Assembly: GCF_949628265.1 (NCBI RefSeq)
Contig: NC_088790.1
Location: 27,098,545 to 27,162,544, forward strand
Length of the DNA stretch: 64,000 nt
Direction of reading: 5' to 3'
Origin: Cloeon dipterum
Taxonomy: Eukaryota; Arthropoda; Insecta; Ephemeroptera; Baetidae
Shown: piece after piece, positions 49,082 through 61,513 of the stretch
How positions within the stretch are numbered: position 1 is the first letter of the stretch
How the letters are laid out: every line of letters starts with the position of its first letter
Translations under genes and position numbers: made by a program
Notes under the pieces: generated by a model
Told to the model about the DNA's origin: nothing
The model's database searches: none
Seen by the model: only the letters and a program-made list of their open reading frames with translations

Positions 49082-50296
49082 ATGAGTGAAGACAAAAGGG
49101 ATGAAAAAGGTGTTGGAGAGGGCGCCGAAGAAGATAAATCTGAAACAATCAGTGACTCAAGCGACGAGGAAACCGACCCTGGAGAGGAGGACACGGAAGA
49201 CGGGGTGACTGACGCGGTTAAAGGGTTGGTTGAGACATTTAAAAAAGTGTACGTTGTAGCGTGGTGCTTTTTGAGTGCACTTAATAAAATTATTTCCGCT
49301 TCTAGGACAAATACAAATGGAAAACGGCGGGAAAAAAAGAAACCTTTGGTTAAAGAGGACCCGTTCTACAACATGAGACACGAAAAACGCGGAAAAGCCA
49401 TCATTTTCAACCACTTCCATTATGATGCCAAGTTGTACCTAGACCCAAGGAACGGAACCGAAAGGGACGTAATAAGATTGAAGCAAGCATTCAAGAAACA
49501 CTCGTTTAAGGTCGAGGTTTATGACAATTTGACAGTAGGAGACATACAGTACGCCGTGCAAACAAGTGAGTGCTTCAAGAAAAGTCTTACTTTATTTTCA
49601 ACTTTCACCATAATTGTGTAGTAATTTTTGTCTTTCGTATTGCACATCAACCCTTCACTTATTGACTAAAACACCGTCTCCTATTTGTTTAATATAATTA
49701 CAGTAATAGCCAAGGGCGATCACTCCAATTCCGACTGTGTGGCAGTGGTAATTCTGACACACGGCAAATATGTCGAAGGAAAAGGAAGCGTGCTCTACGC
49801 TCGGGATGGAACGTACCAGCTAGACACCCTGATTGAAATGATCACGCCAGAAAAATGCACGTCGCTGGCAGGCAAACCGAAATTATTTTTCGTTCAGGCT
49901 TGCAGAGGCGAGAAAAAGGACAAAGGCACGACCATTGCTGTTGACTCATTCCCGGTAAAGTCTTACAAAAAGATTCCAACCTACGCGGATTTCTTCATCG
50001 CTCAATCTACAATACCAAGTACGTGAAAATTAAATCCGTAAAAGGAACAGTTTTTTTACTCTTATTCCCCTGCAGGATTCGTGTCTATAAGAAACAAGGT
50101 TAAAGGTTCCTGGTTCATGAAGGCGCTGAGCATGAAGCTGATGGAAGAGGATAGCAACACGAAGAGCATTTTTTCCATCATGACGGAAGTCATTGCCCAC
50201 GTGGCCTTCAAGTGTGAGAGCGATACTGAGAATTTGAAACAAATTCCTACCTTTACGTCCAGACTAACTAAGGACCTGATTTTTGTCAAGAAATGA
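49082..50296 (+). CDS. Casp-1: effector-type caspase, catalytic Cys present, 320 aa
   Basis: Exons 49082-49248, 49306-49565, 49704-50018 and 50076-50296 join in phase (2,1,1). The start follows an in-frame TAA (TAA ATC GCC ATG). A cysteine protease of the caspase family (C14): cleaves after Asp in target proteins during cell death or other signalling, in the cytoplasm. Residues 1-75 are an acidic then lysine-rich prodomain with no CARD or DED. The p20 core begins at HEKRGKAIIFNH (81-92). Substrate-binding Arg104 is in PRNGT; catalytic His162 is in ILTHG and catalytic Cys209 in QACRG; Arg253 of the small subunit is in VSIRN. The usual SWR is SIR here, so the S2-pocket Trp is Ile, though Trp260 (GSWF) remains. 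An Asp in IAVDSF is a possible subunit cleavage site. First of four tandem caspase genes; its 3' half was copied to give the pseudogene at 54.4 kb. Confidence 0.9.
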
Positions 50297-51831
50297 TTGT
50301 TATACCAAAAAAATATAAATCAAAACATCCTTTTACAATCTACAAAATAATGATTTATTATTAATTGTGAGGGTAAAAAATACCCAGAAGGTTTCTAATA
50401 ATTACGTTTTAGAGAAAAATAAATATGTTTAATGAAGTTATCGGCTTTTTATGCTGACTTGTCCAAGGTGGTGTTGACACACCAAATGGTAATAAAGTTA
50501 CTTGATATTTTTCATTCTAAAAAGGAGCATATTGATATAATTAAAATTTTCTTTTATAGTGTGAATCCCTTATGGTACTTTTATTAGTAGATGTTTAAAA
50601 ACCACTTTAATTTAAATTATATTGTTCGCCTAACAATAACTGACTCTTATTTGTACCACAAGTGATTACAAGTAAATTGCCAAACACTCGAATTATATTG
50701 TTTTAAATACAAAGTAATCTCATTGAGGACCAAAACATATTTATTCCATTAAATCCTCAATGTCCTTGATTCAACAATATTTTCAATAGAGGATATTTAT
50801 GTCCATTTGTAATAGTGAAGTTAATCTATTGTTTACTCGATTACCCTCCGCCATGTTTTCCATTGGGCAAACCCCTCACTTGCCACTATATAACCGCGGA
50901 CCAAATGACACTCGAGTTACTAGAGAGTTCATTTTCCACGCGTTACAACGGGCTAGTGTGGGAGACGTCCGCAGCTATTCTTCTTTAATTGGCAGAGTGA
51001 GTGGTGAGAAACTTATAGTTAACTGAGCTTATTAATTCCTCTTTTCGAATTCAATATTGTAAAGTTTAATTCATTTAATATTCAGTTCCTGATTGTATTT
51101 CGGTTAATTCAATAACGTTCTTAACTGAGTCAATATCAAGGTGAAATATATTCAATAATTATTAAACCAAATATAAAATTTTGCTGTATCTTTTAAAGTA
51201 CCAGCTTAAATAATAATGTTACTTGTATTTAACCTAAACTGGTCTCTTTCATTATTTTACCCTAGTAATTAAAGAAACTACGCGATCTTGAACCGCTCGT
51301 CTAAAACTTATATTTAACAATTAAATTCCATTTTCTTAAGTTATTCTTTTAACGTAAATTCAAAATCTTCCATTTCCAACTTTGGGAACTAATTAAAGTT
51401 GGTGGTGTCAGAAAAATCCTGAAAGGGCACGGCTTCACCGGAGGGGTAACTACTGGGGAGTTCTGTCCTGCGGCCCGAATTAATGCCTGGGTACGCGAAG
51501 GAACGATAAATTTTTGGACAATTAATCAGCTAGATTACTCCTGACTAAGTTGCAATTAAATTCACAATAGATAGAACTCAAATTTTATGATTTTGAAAAC
51601 AGATATCAAAGATGGGTTGTTTTTAGCAAATAATAATAATTAGACCTCATTCACTGCGAAAAATAATTTTAAACTTCAAGTTGAAATTAAATATGCTCGG
51701 AGCATATTAAGCTGTTTTGCTTTTCTATATTTCTAAATTTACGTCATACTTGTTTATTTTTTCGGCTGTTGGTTCAAATTTCAACGAAAATAATTATTGC
51801 CCAAAGTAAAAATAAATTATTCATATAACTA
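50297..51831. other. Casp-1 to Casp-2 intergenic DNA
   Basis: Contains an AATAAA signal for Casp-1 at 50418-50423. The stretch from about 50556 to 51563 is absent from the paralogous right unit, and no gene is seen in it; it could be an insertion on this side or a deletion on the other. Confidence 0.5.
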
Positions 51832-52014
51832 AACTCTCGTCGTGCGCATGTGCGGACAGGTGGAGGGTGGTGAGAACTACCCCCACGTGGTGCTTGACCT
51901 ACACCACTACCATTTTTCGAGGAAAGCAGAGAGCAGCAGTTGAGCAATAGCCAATAGCTATCGTCAGCTGAGGCAGTTCCTATTTTTTTCGCAGGCGATC
52001 TGGTGCATTCGAAG
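51832..52014 (+). promoter_or_regulatory. Conserved upstream block of Casp-2
   Basis: About 185 bp upstream of the start codon is strongly similar to 55802-55994 upstream of Casp-3, starting at CTCTCGTCGTGCGCATG and including ACAGGTGGAGGG and CTATCGTCA.CTGAGGCAGTT. It probably holds the core promoter and 5' UTR; no TATA box is obvious. Confidence 0.5.
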
Positions 52015-53292
52015 ATGAGTGAAAACAAAAAGGTTGAAAACAATTTCGAATCGCAAACCGAGGAGGAGGATCAGAAGACTGAATCAATAAGTAAACCAAG
52101 TGATGAGGAGCTGGACCCCTCCTGGAGCGAGGAAATGCACCTCAAGGGTGCGGACACGGGAGACGGAGTAGTTGTGTCGCAACTAGTTGAGAGTTTGAAG
52201 AATTTGTACGATCTATTTTCACTTAGAAATTGCACGTTGTATTATTGTACGTTTCCTGCTTCTAGCGAACTGCCCAGTAGTGCAACCGTCGACGGTTTGC
52301 AACAGTACAAGATGAGCCACGAAAAGCGCGGAAAGGCCATCATTTTCAACCACAATAGATTTAATCCGTACCTGAATCTTCACACGAGGGAAGGAACCAA
52401 AAAGGACGTAGAAAGGCTGGAGCACGTGTTCAACATGCACTCGTTTGAAGTGACGGTCTACAATGACTTGAGAGTTTCTAATCTATTTACTGCCATTAAA
52501 ACAGGTTTTAATTTGATTAGCTTCTAATTTATGTGCGTGGCTGTGTCCTTCAGCTCCTATTTACACTTACATTTAAATGCAAATAGTGCCACCCAATTTA
52601 ATTTAGATACAAATTCGATTAATTTATAAAATTATAAATAGCATAGGACACAATTGTGTTACGTTAGAAATTGTAGCTTCACATCGATCCTATCCAACTT
52701 ATATAATAATACTTCCAAAAATTGTTTCAGAGATTGCCAATGCCGATCACTCAAACGCTGACTGTGTGGCAGTGGTGATTCTAACCCACGGTGTAGACGA
52801 ATTCCTTTATGGAAGTGATGCAGCATTCCAACTCAGTACTGTGATGGAGATGATCACACCTGATAAATGCCTATCCCTGGCAGGCAAACCGAAATTAATT
52901 TTCGTCCAGGCTTCCAATGGCGATAAAGTAGATCACGGCGGTTTCTTTTTTTTTCGTACAAAGCCTATGAGTGTCAAGATTCCAAGTTACAAAGATTTCT
53001 TAATTGCAAAGTCTAGAGCACGAGGTACTTTTTGTAATATTAAATTAGTGAAGGTTTTCCAATTTTTTTTTCAGGTTACATTGCCATGAGGTATGAGGAA
53101 GAAGGCTCTTTGTTGGTAAGGGCGATAGAAGAAGTACTTTCAAAGGAAAAGAGTTACACCACAAGTTTTTTGACTCTCATGACAGAAGTTATTGCTCGCA
53201 TGGCTTTGAAGTACCAAAATCCTGGAGATTTGAAGCAAGTACCGTCCATCACGACCACACTGACAAAGGAACTTATATTTGTCAAGAAATAA
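52015..53292 (+). CDS. Casp-2: pseudocaspase with catalytic Cys replaced by Ser, 313 aa
   Basis: Exons 52015-52205, 52266-52504, 52731-53024 and 53075-53292, same phases and intron positions as Casp-1. An ATG at 52015 (MSENKKVENN) heads an acidic prodomain of about 75 residues; VDG at 72-74 could be a prodomain cleavage site. Core motifs HEKRGKAIIFNH, Arg105 (TREGT) and His163 (ILTHG) are kept, but the active-site pentapeptide is QASNG (codons CAG GCT TCC AAT GGC), so the nucleophile is Ser205. The small subunit has AMR (Arg247) in place of SWR and GSLL in place of GSWF. No clear Asp site lies in the linker apart from KVDHG. With no frameshift or stop and intact splice sites, it looks expressed but without caspase activity; a decoy, inhibitor or scaffold that pairs with active caspases is a reasonable inference. 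Confidence 0.88.
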
Positions 53293-54387
53293 CGGAAATA
53301 ACTTTTAATGCTTGAAATATTTTAATAAATTTGGCATGGCATTTTTGCCAATGAATTATATACAAATTACGGTTTTTATTTAATTTAATTTTTAGCATTT
53401 CTTTGTGGGGTTTCGTCAGGAGTTTTATTAAATTTTAGTTTTGATTAAAATATTGCAGCGATGGAGCGTCTAAGATAAATTTCTTAAATTGTTTTTTAGA
53501 CTCGTTGTTGACTGGCATTTAAGGCATTTTAAGGAAATTCACGGCAAATGCGAGATATTTGAGAATTTCTGGGATAACTGCGGCTTCCCAAAGTCAGAGA
53601 TGGCAGGCAAAAGGTAAATTACTCAAATAGCTAAACGGGCTGGAAGGCCAACTCGCCTCTTTGCTGGTTTTTGCATCTTTCTAGCGTCATTACCAATCAA
53701 AGATTTCGGTGCGGATAGAAGAAAAGAAGGCGACGATTTTGACACCATTATATCCGCCCGGCGGAGTGTTATTGGAACCTGGGGATCGAGGTTATAAAAA
53801 AGACGTTCCGAAAATTCTAAAATAATTTATTTACCTTGTTTTTAGTTCTCGTTAAATTCATCTGGAATTATTTACTGATTTTACAATCGGCAAAAAGCTG
53901 AATAATTGAAATGCTAAAAAGTCGAAATTAACAAATTAATTTATTTTAATTATACTTGTGAATTTGAACTTTAAACCACGTGATGTCTTGCAATGTTATA
54001 ACTACAAAAAGTTGAATTATAATTGAGAATATTTTGTTAACTCTAAAGTTCTACATGCTGTTTTTATTTTTAATATCGGAAAATTTATATTTGTCATTGA
54101 ATTTCCCGTTTTTCTTTGACTTTTGACAGCTCCTCTGACTCTCATCTAATTCTTTCAAGTATTCCTGCAGATTTTCTACGCTATCAATCACCGTCTTTTA
54201 TTATTATGTTGAAGAAATATAATTTTGAATTTAAGCTAATTTATTTTTTCCGCTTAATTTTAAGTCAACAAGCAACTAAAGTCACTGTGTTTTAATTTTT
54301 GGTCAAAATATTTTTCAATTTAAAAAGGTATTATAGGAATTCGAGGAATTGCCATAATTCAGCTCATGCGGTTACATCTCGTGAGGC
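53293..54387. other. Casp-2 3' flank
   Basis: AATAAA at 53324-53329 is the likely poly(A) signal. The remainder is similar along its length to the 3' flank of Casp-3 (57240-58314), including the family F relic. No gene seen. Confidence 0.6.
53517..53705 (+). repeat. Family F relic downstream of Casp-2
   Basis: Shares 'tttaaggca', 'agatatttga', 'tcagagatggca' and 'gggctggaaggc' in order with the retroposon in Pde6 intron 2 (minus strand there) and with 57439-57605. No poly(A) tail is left here. It was probably present before the segmental duplication, since both units carry it. Confidence 0.55.
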
Positions 54388-54809
54388 AATTCTGACACAC
54401 GGCAAATATGTCGAGGAAAAGGGGAGCATTCTCTACACGCTCGGGATGGAATACGTGCCATCTAGACACCCTGATTGAAATGATCATGCCAGAAAAATGC
54501 GCCTCGCTGGCAGGCAAACTGAAATTCTTTTTCGTTCGGGCTTGCAGGGGCGAGAAAAAGGACAAAGGCACGACCATTGCTGTTGACTCATTTCCGGGTT
54601 TCTATAAGAAATAAGGTTAAAGGTTCCTGGTTCATGAAGGCGCTGAGCTTGAAGCTGATGAAATAGGACACCAATGCGAAAAGAATTTTTTCCATCGTGA
54701 CGGAAGTCATTGCCTACGTGGCCTTCAAGTGTGAGAGCGATGCTGAGAATTTGAAACAAATTCCTACATTTACGTCCAAACTGAGGACCTGATTTTTGTC
54801 AAGAAATAA
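54388..54809 (+). pseudogene. Truncated Casp-1 copy (exons 3-4 only)
   Basis: Closely similar to Casp-1 from the AATTCTGACACACGG of exon 3 to the stop codon and beyond. Everything upstream is missing. A deletion of roughly 150 bp removes the end of exon 3, the intron and the exon 4 acceptor (TTTCCGG joined to GTTTCTATAAG). Further damage includes a one-base loss after TATGTCGA, an in-frame TAG (ATGAAATAG) and a six-base loss near the end. Part of the active-site region remains as RACRG. Homology continues through the Casp-1 3' flank. Formed by the tandem duplication, not by reverse transcription. Confidence 0.9.
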
Positions 54810-55801
54810 TTGTTATACCAAAAAATATAAATCAAAACATCCTTTTACAATCTACAAAATGATGATTTATTATTAATTAATTGTGAGGGTAAAAATACCC
54901 AGAAAGTTACTACGAAATACGTTTTAGTGAAAAATAAATATGTTTAATGAAGTTATTGGTTTTGTATGTTGACTTGTCCAAGGTGGTGGTGACAAACCAA
55001 ATGGTAATAAAGTTACTTGATATTTTCCAATCTAGAAAGGAGCGTATTGATATAATTAAAATTTTCTCTCTTTAATAGATAGAATTCTAATTTTATGATT
55101 TTTAAAACAGATATCAAAGATGGGTTGTTTTTAGCAAATAATAGACCTAAAATTTTCTCAAGTTGAAATTAAATTATGCTCAGTGCTTATCGAAAAACTT
55201 TACTTTTTCTGTATTTCTTAAATACTTCACACTTGATTATGTTTTAGGTTGCTGGTTTAAATTTCCAAAATTTCAACCGAAAAAATTATGACAATCTTGC
55301 GTGCTTCTAAAAAAAAACAATTTAATTTTGATAATTTTCCTCTGACATGCTGAACTGATTTTCGTTTAACTAATTATTGCTCAAAGTAGAAAAGAAATCA
55401 ATGTGTTTCGCGGTGGTTGCATGTGCACCGCAATTTATAAACATTATTAACTCGAGGAATTTTATTTTACATGGATTTGATGCACGAAACAGCGCCTTAT
55501 AAACGCTTCGTGATTTTGCTGCAAGCACGCGTGTCACCACATTGCATAACTTGAGAAGGCACATCATTTTTGCTATTTCCTAAAAGATGATTTTTTTTTA
55601 AAGACCAGGTGAGTAAGAGATAATCCCTCAAACTGTGGAAATACACCAGATTTATTTGTTGTCTCGAGATTTACGGATCGGTCAATTAAACGAGACAGTC
55701 ACAATTTATCGCACAGCAGGAATATTAAATTTCACACGTCATGGCAATTAAGAGGCTCCAAAATATCGCGATTGTATAAAAATTAACGTGTTTATCATAT
55801 C
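54810..55801. other. Pseudogene to Casp-3 intergenic DNA
   Basis: First part is the Casp-1 3' flank copy with an AATAAA at about 54935. About 400 bp near 55390-55790 has no match in the left unit. No gene seen. Confidence 0.5.
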
Positions 55802-55994
55802 ACTAAACTCTCGTCGTGCGCATGGGCAGACAGGTGGAGGGTTAACGCGCACAGGTGGTGTGAACTACCCCTACGTGAAGCTTGACCTACCCCACTACCG
55901 TTTTTCGAAGGAAGAGAACTGCAGTTGAGCAACAGCTATCGTCACCTGAGGCAGTTGCTATTTTTTCGCGGGCGATCCTGTTAATCAATCGAAG
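55802..55994 (+). promoter_or_regulatory. Conserved upstream block of Casp-3
   Basis: Counterpart of 51832-52014, with CTCTCGTCGTGCGCATG at its start and a 12-bp extra piece (TTAACGCGCACAGG) in the middle. Probable core promoter and 5' UTR. Confidence 0.5.
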
Positions 55995-57239
55995 ATGAGT
56001 GAAAACAAAAAGGATGAAAACGATATTGGATCGCAAGCCGAGGAGCTGAACCCCTCCTCGAGCGAGGAAATGCACCTCAAGGGTGCGGACACGGTAGACG
56101 GAGTTGTGTCGCGACTAATTGAGAGTTTTAAGAAATTGTACGATTTATTTTCACTTAGAAATTGCACGTTGCATTATTTTACGTTATTCCTGCTTCTAGA
56201 GAACTGCCCAGTAGTGCACCCGTCGACGGTTTGCAACAATACGACATGAGCCACGAAAAGCGCGGAAAGGCCATAATTTTCAACCACTGTGAATTTGATC
56301 CGCAACTGAATCTTCACAAGAGGGAAAAAACCGACAAGGACGTAGAAAGGTTGAAAGCCGTGTTCAACAAGCACTCGTTTGAAGTGAAGGTCTACAGTGA
56401 CTTGAAAGCTTCTGATCTATTTTATATGATCGACGCAGGTTATAATTTAATTTGATTTGCTTCCAATTTATGTGCGTGGTTGTGTCCTTCAGCTCCTATT
56501 TACACCTCCATTTAAATGCAAATAGTGCCACCCAATTTAATTTAGATATACAAATTCGATTTATTTAAAATTATAAATAGCATAGGACATAATTGCTTCA
56601 CGTTAGAAATTGTAGCTTCACATCGATCCTATCCAACTTATATAATAATACTTCCAAAAATTGTTTACAGCTATTGCCAATGCCGATCACTCAAACGCTG
56701 ACTGTGTGGCAGTAGTAATCCTAACCCACGGCGAAGAAGAAGACGTGCTCTTTGCCAGGGATGGAACCTACAAACTCTGTGACTTACTGGACATGATCAC
56801 ACCTGATAAATGTCTATCCCTGGCAGGCAAGCCGAAATTAATTTTCGTCCAGGCTTCCAATGGCGATAAAGTAGATCACGGCAGGATGGTTGGTTTTCGT
56901 CCAAAGCATATGAGTGTCCAGATTCCAAGCTACGCAGATTTCTTAATTGCAGAGTCTAGAGCACGAGGTACTTTTTGTAATATTGAATTAGTGACGGTTT
57001 TTCAATTTTTTTTCTCAGGTTACATCGCCATGAGGTATGAGGAAGAAGGCTCTTTGTTCGTAAGGGCGATGGAAGAAGTACTTTCCAAGGAAAAGAGTCA
57101 CACCACAAGTTTTTTTACTCTCATGACAGAAGTTAATGGTTGTGTGGCTTTGAAGTACCAAAATAATCCTGGAGATTTGAAGCAAGTACCTTCCATCACG
57201 ACCACACTGACAAAGGAACTTGTGCTTGTCAAGAAATAA
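55995..57239 (+). CDS. Casp-3: pseudocaspase with catalytic Cys replaced by Ser, 299 aa
   Basis: Exons 55995-56137, 56200-56438, 56671-56967 and 57019-57239, phases 2,1,1. Paralogue of Casp-2 from the segmental duplication, with a prodomain 16 residues shorter (deletion of the TEEEDQKTESIS region). Retains HEKRGKAIIFNH, Arg89 (KREKT, the usual Gly is Lys) and His147 (ILTHGEEE), but has QASNG with Ser190 as in Casp-2. The small subunit has AMR (Arg232) and GSLF. Part of the LFARDGTY loop that Casp-2 has lost is intact here. All four exons are open, and the first intron (62 nt) is out of frame, which confirms that it is an intron in the paralogues too. Predicted catalytically dead; decoy or regulatory role inferred. 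Confidence 0.88.
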
Positions 57240-57438
57240 CTTTTGGCGCTTGGAAATTTTAATTAAATTTTGCCTGGCTTTTGCCAACGTACATTCTCTA
57301 CAAATTACGTTTTTTTATTTAATTTAATTTTTAGCATTTCTTCAGGAGTTTTATTAAATTTTAGTCTAGATAAGTTTTGATTCAAATCGTCTAAGATAAA
57401 TATCTTAAATTGTTTGTTAGACTCGTTGTTGACTGGAA

Positions 57439-57605
57439 TTTAAGGCATTTTAAGGAAATTCACGGCAAATGCGACATATTTGAGCATTTCTGGCATTACT
57501 GGCTCCCAAAGTCAGAGATGGCAGGCAAAAGGAAAATTACTCAAATAGCTAAACGGGCTGGAAGGCAAACTCGCCTCTTTGCTGGTGTTTGCATCTTTCC
57601 AGCGG
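57439..57605 (+). repeat. Family F relic downstream of Casp-3
   Basis: Duplicate of 53517-53705, with 'tttaaggcattttaagg' through 'ctttgctgg'. Also similar to the retroposon at 25538-25957. Confidence 0.55.
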
Positions 57606-57639
57606 CTTTAGGGACAAATTTCTGACATACCGATCAAAG

Positions 57640-58937
57640 ATTTCGGTAGACGAAAAGATGGCATCGATTTTGGGCCCGTAAGCACCCCTGCGGCAACTTT
57701 TTACCCCATTTTATCCGCCTGGAGGTCGAGGTTATAAAACGTTCCCAAAATTCTTAATTAATTTATTTATCCTGTTTTTAGTTCTTGTTAAATTAATCTG
57801 GAGTTATTTACTGATTTTACAGTAGGCAAAAAGCTAAATAGATGAAATTCTTAAAAGTCGAAATTAACAAATTAATTTATTTTGCTTATACTTGTGATAG
57901 AGTTTGAACTCCGGGATGTCTTGCAATATGTGATAATTACAAAAATTTGAATTATAATTGAGAACATTTTGTTAACTCTAAAGCTGTTTTTATTTTTAAT
58001 ATCGGAGAATTTAGATTTGTCATTGAATTTCCCGTTTTTCTTTTCAGCAGGATGCGTTTCTCGTATTTCTTTGTCTTTTGACGGCTCCTCTAACTCATCT
58101 AATTCTGTCAAGTATTCCTGCAGCTTTTCTACGCTATCAATCGTCTTATATATTATTACATTTTAAAGAAATATAATTTGGAATTGAAGCTAAATTATTT
58201 TTTCCGCTTGTGGTTTTTTTTACTTCTTCGTCAATATATTTTTCACAATTTAAAAAGGCATTATAGGAATTCGAGGAATTGCCATAATTCAGCTCATGGT
58301 TACATCTCGTGAGGTAACTCTATTTAATGATACTGTTTTCAGGTTTTTTTATTATCATTAGAAACACGTTCAATACATTCTGCGGATGTTTAGAATATAG
58401 TCAAATTACTTTTTCCAGTGAAATGTTTCCCCAGAGCTCGCCAGACAGGGGTAGGGGGTGTTGCAAGCACTTTACCGCAGTGCATTGCAACACAGCAAGT
58501 CAGTGGCCCATAAAAAGTCTAAGTTTTGCCCTGGCTGAGCAGAGCGGTGTAGGAAATTCCAGGCAGGTCAGTCAGTGCGCAGTTGGAGCAGCGTGATTCA
58601 CCCGTGGCGTGCTGAGAGGAGGAGAAGCGACCTACCTCCCTTCCGCCGGCCTTGCACTCGCAACACCGACCAATCGGACGAGGCCTAACCATCTGCTGCT
58701 GGCTTCCAGCGCAGTTTGTTGTTTGTGTTGAGGTTCAACTCACTCACAAAAGAGGAAAGACCGATCAGTCGGGTGCTCTCATCAGCTCTTCGCGTGGTGC
58801 AATTATTATTTTGTATTCATCGAGAGTATAATTATAATCGGTCAAAGGCATCGAAGCAAGGCTTTCGACAAGGAGATAAGGGGCAAGTCTGATAAAAACT
58901 CTGGCCGACGCGAAAACTGACGGAGTGCGAACGAACC
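57640..58937. other. Casp-3 3' flank and Casp-4 upstream region
   Basis: To about 58314 this is the end of the duplicated unit. From about 58430 the G+C content rises to a CpG-containing stretch (58430-58930) that probably holds the promoter and 5' UTR of Casp-4; no TATA box is evident. Confidence 0.5.
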
Positions 58938-61513
58938 ATGTCCGACGCAGAAGTTGAGGTTGAGGTTGACAACAACAAGATGAGTTTTGGAAAGTCGGCA
59001 GGCAACGGAGACGTAGGAGACGCCTGGGGACTAGGGAGGTACGTAATTTAAAGTCCAAAATTCCTCCCTTAAAAATCACTCGAATCGATATAGCAAGGAA
59101 TGAAGCAATAAATAAATGATTCCAACCGAGGGTCGATGACATCACCCTTTTATCCTTTTCCTTCTATTGCGTGACACAATTAAATGCGAAAATTCTGTCC
59201 AGCAGCTCGAATCGGATCGTGCAAGCTATGGCTCCGACTGCCAAAAATGATTTCTACTACAAAATGACGCACAAGCGGCGTGGAAGAGCGATTATCTTCA
59301 ACCACGAGCATTTCAACCAGCCGAATCTGTCCATTCGAAACGGAACCAACGTGGACGCTGAGAACTTGAGGGAAACGTTCGAGGGGCTCGGCTTTGACGT
59401 CACCGTGCACAAGGACCCGCTTCTCAGCGACATCGAATACGTTATTAATAAAGGTTGCAGCGAGTTGCGCGATTGTTTATATTTTTAATAAAGACTAATT
59501 ATTATTTTTATAGCCGCCAAAGAAAACCACTCTGAAGCAGACTGCATCGCCGTGATCGTGCTCTCACACGGCGAGGACAAAATTCTCTATGCTAGAGACG
59601 CCGAGTACAAGCCTGAGATGCTGTGGAACGCCTTCACAGCTGACAAGTGCCCAACCCTGGCTGGGAAGCCAAAATTGTTTTTCATCCAAGTAAGCTCAAC
59701 AATCTTACGCATACCAAGGGAATTTTAATAAATCTGAAATAATGTCGCAGGCGTGCCAAGGAGACCGGTTGGACCGAGGCGTAGCGATGAGCACTGAATA
59801 TGATGGGCAAAAATCCGGCATTGTCTACAAAATCCCTGTCTACGCAGATTTTTTGATCTCATTCTCTACTGTGCCAGGTAATTTTTAAATGTTTAAATTA
59901 ATTTGAAATTGATTTCCCAAACTAAAGATTGTTACTGTTTATTTTTTAATCAATGATGCTTTTAAAGAGACTTTAATCTTTTCAAAACTGGATTGATCTG
60001 ATAAAAAATTACTACAGGGTTCAATACGCAAAATTTTATTACTGGGAGTGTACGAAATAAAGCCGAAAAACCCCACCAACTTGGGGATTTCCTGAATTTG
60101 ACCTCCGAAAAGGTCTTATTTTGCGCCTATCAAGACAAAGAGCATTGTGGGCGTAGGAATTGCTCGGCTCAGTGAGATATTTAAAACACCACATCTTCCC
60201 TTAGCCGTGTAACTATTTGAAAATGCTACATTTGCGATTTATGAAATTTGAAATATTTATGGAATTTGTATTAATACAGTTACACTACTTCTCCCTCTAA
60301 AATAAATGCACGCCTAAGGAGAAAGGTTGTGGTGTTAACATTTATCACGCAGCCGAGCAATTTGCATGCCCACAGAAATTTAAAAAGAGTTATATTTTGT
60401 AAGTCAGTGGCACTCTAGGATTTTTTACTATCAATTTGGCTATCAAAAATTTCATATTTATGGTCAGATCAGTAAATTCTGCTTTTAAAACGCGCAGAAT
60501 GTAGATAAAAGTTTAGTGGCGCAGTGGGGTTTCAGAAAATAAATCGAATTTTTTATATTTATACATAACTGTTACAATAATTAAACTCGTTTTAAAATAT
60601 TCTCTAAAATTAAACGGAACAAGACCAATTTAAAAAAAGCCCTGGCAAAAATCGTCTAGAAAAATGTAAATTTACTATTCTTGTTGTTTTTAAGAACATC
60701 TTAAATATTTACAAAAGGATTTTCAATCCTGTCTGAAATAAATTATCCTCCTCTGGAAACAGTAATATATTCGATTTTCACTCTATTTTTTAATGTGCTA
60801 ATTTAACTGCTTGAACACATGGGGAAATATGATTTTACAAACTTTATTTCAAGCGTTTTTTGCGTGACTTGCGAAACAACAAGTTGAGTGCAATTAAAAT
60901 TAATCTTGGAAGCAAAGAATTGTTAGCCAACCGGAATTGGCACAGCAAAATTGCACACCGGATTTTTGCCTGAATAGACAAAACAAAATTAGATCGGGAT
61001 TTTTCGTGATTTTAGTTCAAATCCTTTGTGACCCTTTCAAACTCGCAATCTGATTTAAACATTAAATTGTAATTTTACTGCACTATTTTGGGAACAATAA
61101 TAACTAATATATCAGAAATTGAGGTTTTGGAAAAAATATTTTTCACTCTTCTGTTTTGGTACACAATTTCTTGTAAAAGTCAACAAGTTCTGAAAATTCC
61201 CCATTTGTCGCACTCAACTAAAATAGAACCTGGTGCTCCTAAGCTAATTTTTACCCCTGCTTTTCTCATTCTAGGTTACTACTCGTGGCGCAACGTGAAC
61301 AAAGGGTCGTGGTTCATGCAAGCTTTGTGCGAGATTCTGCGTCGCAGTGGCACCTCCCTTGATCTCCTCACCCTGATGACCCTGGTATCGCAGAAGGTGG
61401 CCGTGGGCTTCGAGTCGTCGTCGAGCGACCCGACCATGCACGGAAACAAGCAAATCCCCAGCACGACCACGATGCTCACCAGAATGCTCATTTTCACGCA
61501 GAAACATATCTGA
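58938..61513 (+). CDS. Casp-4: canonical effector-type caspase, 297 aa
   Basis: Exons 58938-59038, 59203-59453, 59514-59689, 59751-59877 and 61275-61513; phases 2,1,0,1. Cytoplasmic Asp-specific cysteine protease, most like insect effector caspases (caspase-3/7, drICE type). The prodomain is short (about 50 residues) and acidic, with no CARD or DED. The core starts at HKRRGRAIIFNH; Arg in IRNGT binds substrate; catalytic His136 is in VLSHGED and Cys178 in QACQG; the small subunit has GYYSWRN (Arg224) and GSWF (Trp231), the full S2 pocket. An extra phase-0 intron, absent from Casp-1 to -3, falls between Gln176 and Ala177 of the active-site pentapeptide. The exon 2 acceptor is CAGCAG, so a version starting at 59206 with one Ser fewer is possible. 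It is outside the duplicated block and more diverged, so it is the likely older, conserved family member. Confidence 0.92.
59878..61274. other. Casp-4 intron 4
   Basis: A 1.4-kb intron, far longer than the other caspase introns. It carries the foldback at 60146-60374 and otherwise AT-rich DNA without a coding exon. Confidence 0.6.
60146..60374. mobile_element. Foldback element in Casp-4 intron 4
   Basis: TGTGGGC..GAATTGCTCGGCT on the left and AGCCGAGCAATT..GCCCACA on the right are inverted copies, with ACACCACA / TGTGGTGT inside. Arms are about 60-80 bp around an AT-rich centre; no coding capacity. Confidence 0.6.

Follow-up and report, generated by a model that had tools for sequence, protein, structure and literature searches.

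Inactive caspases are known from few lineages, and whether they are kept for a purpose is often unclear. In Aedes aegypti, CASPS18 is a caspase paralogue that two reports describe as an inactive decoy enhancing an active paralogue, and both CASPS18 and CASPS19 are given there as homologues of Drosophila Decay (PMC4840389, PMC3141678). c-FLIP-L is reported to form an active heterodimer with caspase-8 (PMC11121540). The C. elegans caspase paralogues CSP-2 and CSP-3 are reported to restrain cell death; in that account, CSP-3 lacks an active site, CSP-2 keeps its cysteine (VCCRG), and the csp-3 phenotype was not repeated (PMC3591282). Here we analyze four caspase genes that lie in a row on the forward strand of a 64,000-nt stretch of the Cloeon dipterum genome (contig NC_088790.1, positions 27,098,545 to 27,162,544; hereafter the window, with positions counted from its first base). 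The two middle genes, Casp-2 and Casp-3, read directly as whole caspase domains that have lost the catalytic Cys, the Trp of the GSW motif, and the linker Asp, in open frames with a constrained core and rapidly replaced loops.

Like CASPS18 with CASPS19, Casp-2 and Casp-3 are inactive insect paralogues near an active-looking caspase, in this case Casp-1, which ends 1.7 kb upstream of Casp-2. Unlike those Decay homologues, they have Casp-1 itself as their Cys-bearing sister. The original CASPS18 paper is reportedly that of Bryant et al. 2010. Two dead copies from a tandem duplication, with fast-changing loops, may be particular to the present locus. The arrangement also resembles c-FLIP-L beside caspase-8 in that a pseudo-caspase adjoins an active paralogue, but c-FLIP has recruitment domains, whereas the short N-termini of Casp-2 and Casp-3 contain no Pfam domain above cut-off. 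In contrast to CSP-2 and CSP-3, both subunits are retained and the change is at the Cys itself. Pseudo-caspases are already known, and what is unusual here is a tandem history that left a broken fragment of the active gene next to its dead relatives.

Domain and active site of Casp-2 and Casp-3

Casp-2 (52015..53292; exons 52015-52205, 52266-52504, 52731-53024, and 53075-53292) and Casp-3 (55995..57239; exons 55995-56137, 56200-56438, 56671-56967, and 57019-57239) encode proteins of 313 and 299 amino acids (aa). They are flanked by Casp-1, an intact caspase with a QACRG motif (320 aa; 49082..50296; exons 49082-49248, 49306-49565, 49704-50018, and 50076-50296), and by Casp-4, a canonical effector caspase with QACQG (296 aa; 58938..61513; exons 58938-59038, 59206-59453, 59514-59689, 59751-59877, and 61275-61513). 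All four genes lie on the forward strand, their spliced reading frames are uninterrupted between ATG and stop, and all 13 of their introns have GT-AG borders. The three introns of Casp-1, Casp-2, and Casp-3 have the same order and phase (2, 1, 1), which for Casp-1 holds with its start placed at 49082. Matches to the Pfam Peptidase_C14 profile (PF00656; cut-off 21.4 bits) score 180.6, 146.2, 148.0, and 214.6 bits for Casp-1 through Casp-4, and because Casp-2 and Casp-3 match the whole domain they belong by descent to caspase family C14. Comparison of Casp-1 and Casp-3 against solved structures gave 1m72 as the best match to each (E = 4.4e-54 and 4.5e-42, respectively) and 3sir as the third best. 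We take these to be a Spodoptera and a Drosophila effector caspase. Both are complete enzymes in which QACQG, SWR, GSW, and a TETD site in the linker are present; Casp-2 and Casp-3 lack all four.

Residues were compared in an alignment of the four proteins, three further paralogues encoded at other genomic loci, and two insect effector caspases of solved structure. Loop and strand names, and the functions assigned to the residues discussed here, follow well-studied caspases. Casp-1 and Casp-4 carry the catalytic Cys of the QACxG motif as TGC (49901-49903 and 59754-59756), whereas both Casp-2 (52913-52915) and Casp-3 (56856-56858) have a Ser codon, TCC, at this position. The following residue is altered too, with Asn in place of Arg or Gln to give QASNG. 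The catalytic His remains (CAC at 52787-52789 in Casp-2 and 56727-56729 in Casp-3; all of these codons are on the forward strand), as do two pocket arginines, one in the RxGT/RxKT motif and one in the L3 loop. These models and codons confirm the initial annotation, which had described four open exons with splice sites, a retained His and substrate Arg, and a TGC to TCC change in both genes.

Two further losses set Casp-2 and Casp-3 apart from Casp-1. The Trp of the L3 GSW motif, which Casp-1 and Casp-4 keep, is gone (GSWF is aligned with GSLL/GSLF), and the L3 loop is the same in the two copies while differing from that of other caspases. The linker is shorter and has no Asp between DKVDHG and the small subunit, whereas a linker Asp is present in Casp-1 (in IAVD) and in Casp-4. 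The first pocket Trp is also missing (SWR is AMR in both), but it is absent from Casp-1 as well (SIR), so only the GSW Trp and the linker Asp are distinguishing here. Neither dead paralogue thus has the pocket Trp pair and linker Asp of an active caspase. Casp-2 and Casp-3 are very probably catalytically dead, and with both the Cys and the linker Asp lost the predicted protein would neither cut nor be cut at its linker. We would guess that they also bind substrate more weakly. The GSL sequence and the missing linker Asp favor a dimer partner, or a protein that baits others, over a substrate-trapping decoy. Casp-1, judged from its motifs, appears to be active.

Frame retention and uneven divergence

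Casp-2 and Casp-3 do not look like decayed pseudogenes, since they have no frameshifts and no internal stops and their introns are present. In the introns and flanks of the duplication there are 173 substitutions over 1,533 aligned sites and 30 insertions or deletions (indels), of which 24 are not multiples of 3. The exons of the pair have 110 substitutions over 887 sites and four coding indels, all multiples of 3 (Fisher p = 0.0045 for coding versus noncoding indel lengths; a fifth exon gap, of 9 nt at the stop codon, was set aside from the count). About 14 frameshifts and 4 stops would be expected if the rates are scaled from noncoding divergence, with noncoding base frequencies for the stops set by hand, and none of either is seen (P about 1e-6 for the frameshifts).

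Codon models were fitted to six of the seven gene copies, with a far paralogue (L009) excluded for its long branch, and 52 of an intended 60 null simulations were completed. On the two tips leading to Casp-2 and Casp-3, the ratio of nonsynonymous to synonymous rates (dN/dS, or omega) is 0.32 at codons conserved in other caspases and 1.46 at variable ones. This contrast has a likelihood ratio test statistic (LRT) of 17.7, which none of the 52 simulations reached, and the conserved codons have an omega below 1 (p = 0.005). The contrast persists after codons with multiple differences are masked (0.21 versus 1.01, p = 0.0015) and weakly remains without three fast stretches (p = 0.043). Casp-2 and Casp-3 likewise differ at 16 of the 107 columns where Casp-1 and Casp-4 agree but at 42 of 160 others (p = 0.034). 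The absence of frameshifts and stops, together with the contrast between site classes, speaks against neutral decay despite a mean omega near 1, and the frames look to be kept by selection. Intact frames combined with rapid change at some surfaces suggest that the genes are not decaying and serve as useful regulators or decoys.

The replacements are concentrated in particular structural elements. None of the 69 residues in b1, b3 with the His-Gly, the a3-b4 loop, b4 with QASNG, L3, and L4 is changed, although nine codons there have changed synonymously. By contrast, 37 of 78 residues are changed in L1, a2, the strands after the His, a3, and L2 with the linker, where only two codons have synonymous changes alone. 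This grouping into frozen and fast elements was made after the data had been seen. Intermediate elements include the N-terminus (15/69), a1 (3/12), b2 (2/9), b5 (2/13), a4 (2/15), and a5 (6/22). Helices a2, a3, and a5 share one face, and there is a hint that they change more than a1 and a4 (19/48 versus 5/27, p = 0.07). The most diverged coding stretch lies directly after the catalytic His-Gly in exon 3 (52793..52849, forward strand; its partner in Casp-3 is 56733-56792). Exon 4, which carries the dimer-interface strand, has a lower dN than exons 1-3 (p = 0.004).

The best explanation, to which we give about an even chance, is that Casp-2 and Casp-3 are retained pseudo-caspases that act as non-proteolytic dimer partners of Casp-1 or of each other and have fast-changing loops. 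They would fold as uncleavable protomers without proteolytic activity and would dimerize among themselves or with Casp-1, which in the tree is the nearest paralogue to have the Cys, probably through the C-terminal half, which is fairly well conserved. When paired with an active caspase, the dead half could either support its partner, as is reported for c-FLIP-L and CASPS18, or hold it inactive. The fast-changing loops might then tune the choice of partner or the outcome differently in Casp-2 and Casp-3. Expression, folding, dimerization, an effect on activity, and an active Casp-1 are the steps that we infer here. If Casp-2 and Casp-3 do bind Casp-1, the locus would offer a compact system for learning how a dead protomer tunes a live one.

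Several observations weigh against this explanation. Mean omega between Casp-2 and Casp-3 over 297 codons is 0.92 by the NG86 method and 1.13 by pairwise maximum likelihood (p = 0.63 versus 1), and on the two tips it is 0.87 over 229 core codons (p = 0.59 versus 1) compared with 0.19 elsewhere. On the stem branch omega is 0.39, which differs neither from the rest of the tree (LRT 1.9) nor from 1 (p = 0.24), so it gives no evidence of constraint in the interval from the Casp-1 split to the duplication. The short N-termini carry no c-FLIP-type recruitment domain, Peptidase_C14 being the only Pfam domain above cut-off. Strand b6 of the dimer interface has changes at 2 of its 12 residues and so is not frozen, and dS as well as dN is low in exon 4, whose omega of 0.64 is like that of exon 3 (0.61); omega is 3.1 in exon 1 and 1.45 in exon 2.

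A more tentative reading is that the dead pair is under diversifying selection, in which the core, the floor of the dead catalytic site, and the loops of the groove stay frozen and rapid evolution affects other loops and possibly a helical face as well. In the decoy form of this idea, which we likewise consider unlikely, the dead caspases bait pathogen or host caspase inhibitors (IAP- or P35-like), so that their loops race while the fold is kept. A free two-class mixture places about 63% of tip codons at an omega near 0 and 37% at 3.4, and the upper class exceeds 1 (LRT 10.5, p = 0.001; reached in none of the 52 simulations) even without the exon-3 stretch (p = 4e-5) or the three fast stretches (p = 0.01). 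This class disappears, however, once codons with at least two differences (21 of 229) are masked. That count is itself above the null (mean 10.8, maximum 18), but the simulations contain no multi-nucleotide mutation, and we therefore call diversifying selection no more than possible. Nonsynonymous divergence also exceeds intron divergence (85/703 versus 16/334, p = 1e-4). So does synonymous divergence (25/188 versus 16/334, p = 0.001), and patchy conversion may account for the low intron value. Overall, dN is not above dS (p = 0.71). A P35-type inhibitor is in general expected to trap its target covalently, which loss of the Cys would block. If diversifying selection is nevertheless at work, Casp-2 and Casp-3 would be fast-evolving baits or partner-switching subunits in a cell-death arms race, and the Casp-1 fragment would serve as a local decay clock.

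Casp-2 and Casp-3 might instead be relaxed, slowly dying genes that lost their function after the Cys change and whose frames are open by luck, a history that we find improbable. The initial annotation had argued that the open frames make the dead enzymes probably useful and had looked to dN/dS for decay, which a value near 1 would indicate. The estimates of 0.87-1.13 are indeed near 1 and indistinguishable from it, and a two-omega model has a clear rise from 0.21 in the rest of the tree to 0.87 on the tips (LRT 27.1). The proposed usefulness draws its support from the missing frameshifts and stops, which, like the strong contrast among site classes, oppose decay. A weak sign of decay is that Casp-3 lacks AATAAA and has only ATTAAA (within 300 bases), but Casp-4 has neither signal.

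Gene conversion among the copies or their neighbors could also have produced a mosaic in which ordinary purifying selection operates and the fast codons are foreign tracts, although we doubt that this is the main cause. Divergence between Casp-2 and Casp-3 is patchy, at 0.05-0.06 in introns, 0.17-0.18 in exons 2-3, 0.08 in exon 4, and 0.10-0.18 in flanks. The dS of exon 3 stands out at 0.24 against 0.04-0.13 in the remaining exons, and exons 2 and 3 are alike over their first 40-60 bases and diverge further inside. No third copy or donor gene was found for the diverged exon-3 stretch, whose three genome matches (best candidates only) are all in this cluster. It is highly improbable that Casp-2 and Casp-3 are altered but active enzymes with Ser as nucleophile on unusual substrates, despite the retained His and both Arg and a shared, atypical L3 loop, because the Asp for linker processing is absent and a Cys-to-Ser change abolished the activity of caspase-15 (PMC12292325).

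Tandem duplication and the broken Casp-1 fragment

In a tree of nine proteins, Casp-2 and Casp-3 group together with 100% support and the pair joins Casp-1 with 97%. Their NG86 dS of 0.144, compared with 1.3 between the pair and Casp-1, makes their split recent relative to the split from Casp-1. The protein branch is longer in Casp-2 (0.226 versus 0.093 in Casp-3), whereas the codon branches are close (0.24 and 0.20). The initial annotation held that the Cys change predates the duplication. This remains the simplest reading, since both copies have the same TCC AAT GGC, but later gene conversion could have produced the same identity.

Comparison of the window with itself reveals three sets of matches, all on the forward strand. 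Positions 51821-54393 match 55795-58321 (81% over 2,679 columns), 49747-49955 plus 50081-50552 match 54385-55067 (90-91%), and 51566-51782 pairs with 55074-55265 (75%). Between Casp-2 and Casp-3, then, lies a broken duplicate of the 3' portion of Casp-1 together with the DNA following it. The simplest history is one tandem duplication that started inside Casp-1 exon 3, with a single unit suggested by how the matches line up. Its first copy (49747..54384) would run from the interior of that exon through Casp-2 to about 1.1 kb downstream, and its second (54385..58321) would hold the Casp-1 fragment, Casp-3, and a downstream stretch. Copy two lacks about 1 kb corresponding to 50553-51565, and its 55266-55794 (about 0.5 kb) is unmatched in copy one, which would reflect later gains or losses. 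Casp-1 and Casp-4 do flank the dead pair, as had been stated initially, but the pair was not copied alone because the 3' part of Casp-1 went along. We infer from this layout that a compact enzyme-plus-decoy module is possible.

The Casp-1 fragment with its downstream stretch (54385..55067, forward strand) begins within Casp-1 exon 3. Its lesions are two 2-nt insertions, deletions of 125 nt and 4 nt, and one in-frame TAG, or four frameshifting indels and one stop in 422 aligned sites. The locus contains an internal comparison, in which a truncated copy of the active enzyme has accumulated frameshifts and a stop, whereas both copies of the dead gene remain open. On the single-duplication history, the fragment would have lacked exons 1 and 2 from the outset, and being truncated it was free to decay, which lessens the force of the comparison. 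Its noncoding tail is 7% diverged from the Casp-1 side (254 columns), compared with 13% for the flanks of Casp-2 and Casp-3 (157/1199), which makes a single event of one age insecure. Conversion, rate differences, or two separate events could explain this mismatch. An artefact of assembly or haplotype is thought unlikely, as the copies are about 12% different in their exons and lie in tandem with separate flanks on one contig. Retroposition is ruled out by the introns of Casp-2 and Casp-3.

Other caspases, introns, and repeats

Across the genome there are 36 exon-wise matches to PF00656, and Casp-3 as a query gives 19 matches, in this cluster, at C4:1.03 Mb, and at C5:14.2 Mb. Of the 24 loci examined, just two contain a DNA pattern resembling QASNG, namely Casp-2 and Casp-3 themselves, and no other dead effector caspase of their type was found among these loci. 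Two short peptide patterns gave 12 pattern matches in viral contigs, none of them confirmed as a related locus. A literature search made without the species name, and hence a weak negative, turned up no publication on this caspase locus.

In both Casp-1 (49249-49305) and Casp-2 (52206-52265), intron 1 has a length divisible by 3 and no in-frame stop, so that its retention would lengthen the open reading frame. In Casp-3 this intron is 62 bp and would break the frame if retained. An intron of Casp-4 (59690-59750) splits QACQG between the Gln and the Ala-Cys; two paralogues at another locus (L011) have the same arrangement, and Casp-1, Casp-2, and Casp-3 do not. Intron 2 is 95.5% identical between Casp-2 (52505-52730) and Casp-3 (56439-56670), above the identity of synonymous sites and flanks. 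RNA structure was considered as a reason for this conservation and rejected, as the folded Casp-3 intron is not unusual (z = -0.80). No known RNA family reaches its gathering score in the window.

The genome also holds another caspase-like family, in which a caspase domain with Q(P/S)CRG, a degenerate Cys-less caspase-like stretch, and a NACHT-type NTPase are seemingly fused. This order was read by eye in five of five loci, L021 (G000 C4:36043000-36047000), L022, L016, L014, and L020, and the Cys-less stretch of L022, for example, reads GKPKIFFIVDQKA. Pfam searches with pieces of two of the loci matched NACHT (3.8e-9) and C14 (1.4e-5) in L021 and C14 (4e-11) in L014, and the one Cys-less stretch of this family that was scanned gave no Pfam match. 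The genome has at least 101 NACHT matches, which is many for an insect.

Searches for tandem repeats of TTAGG and of TTATTGGG gave no matches with a DNA search noted to skip simple repeats. Between about 25125 and 40086, the window has open reading frames that resemble pieces of a GAF-type cyclic-nucleotide phosphodiesterase with a CaaX-like end, as named by eye. An interspersed repeat of about 430 bp occurs in at least six copies in both orientations (at 2078, 13943, 21274, 29541, 33464, and 38502), and a second repeat family, with a unit of about 250 bp, is located between 9.5 and 32.7 kb.

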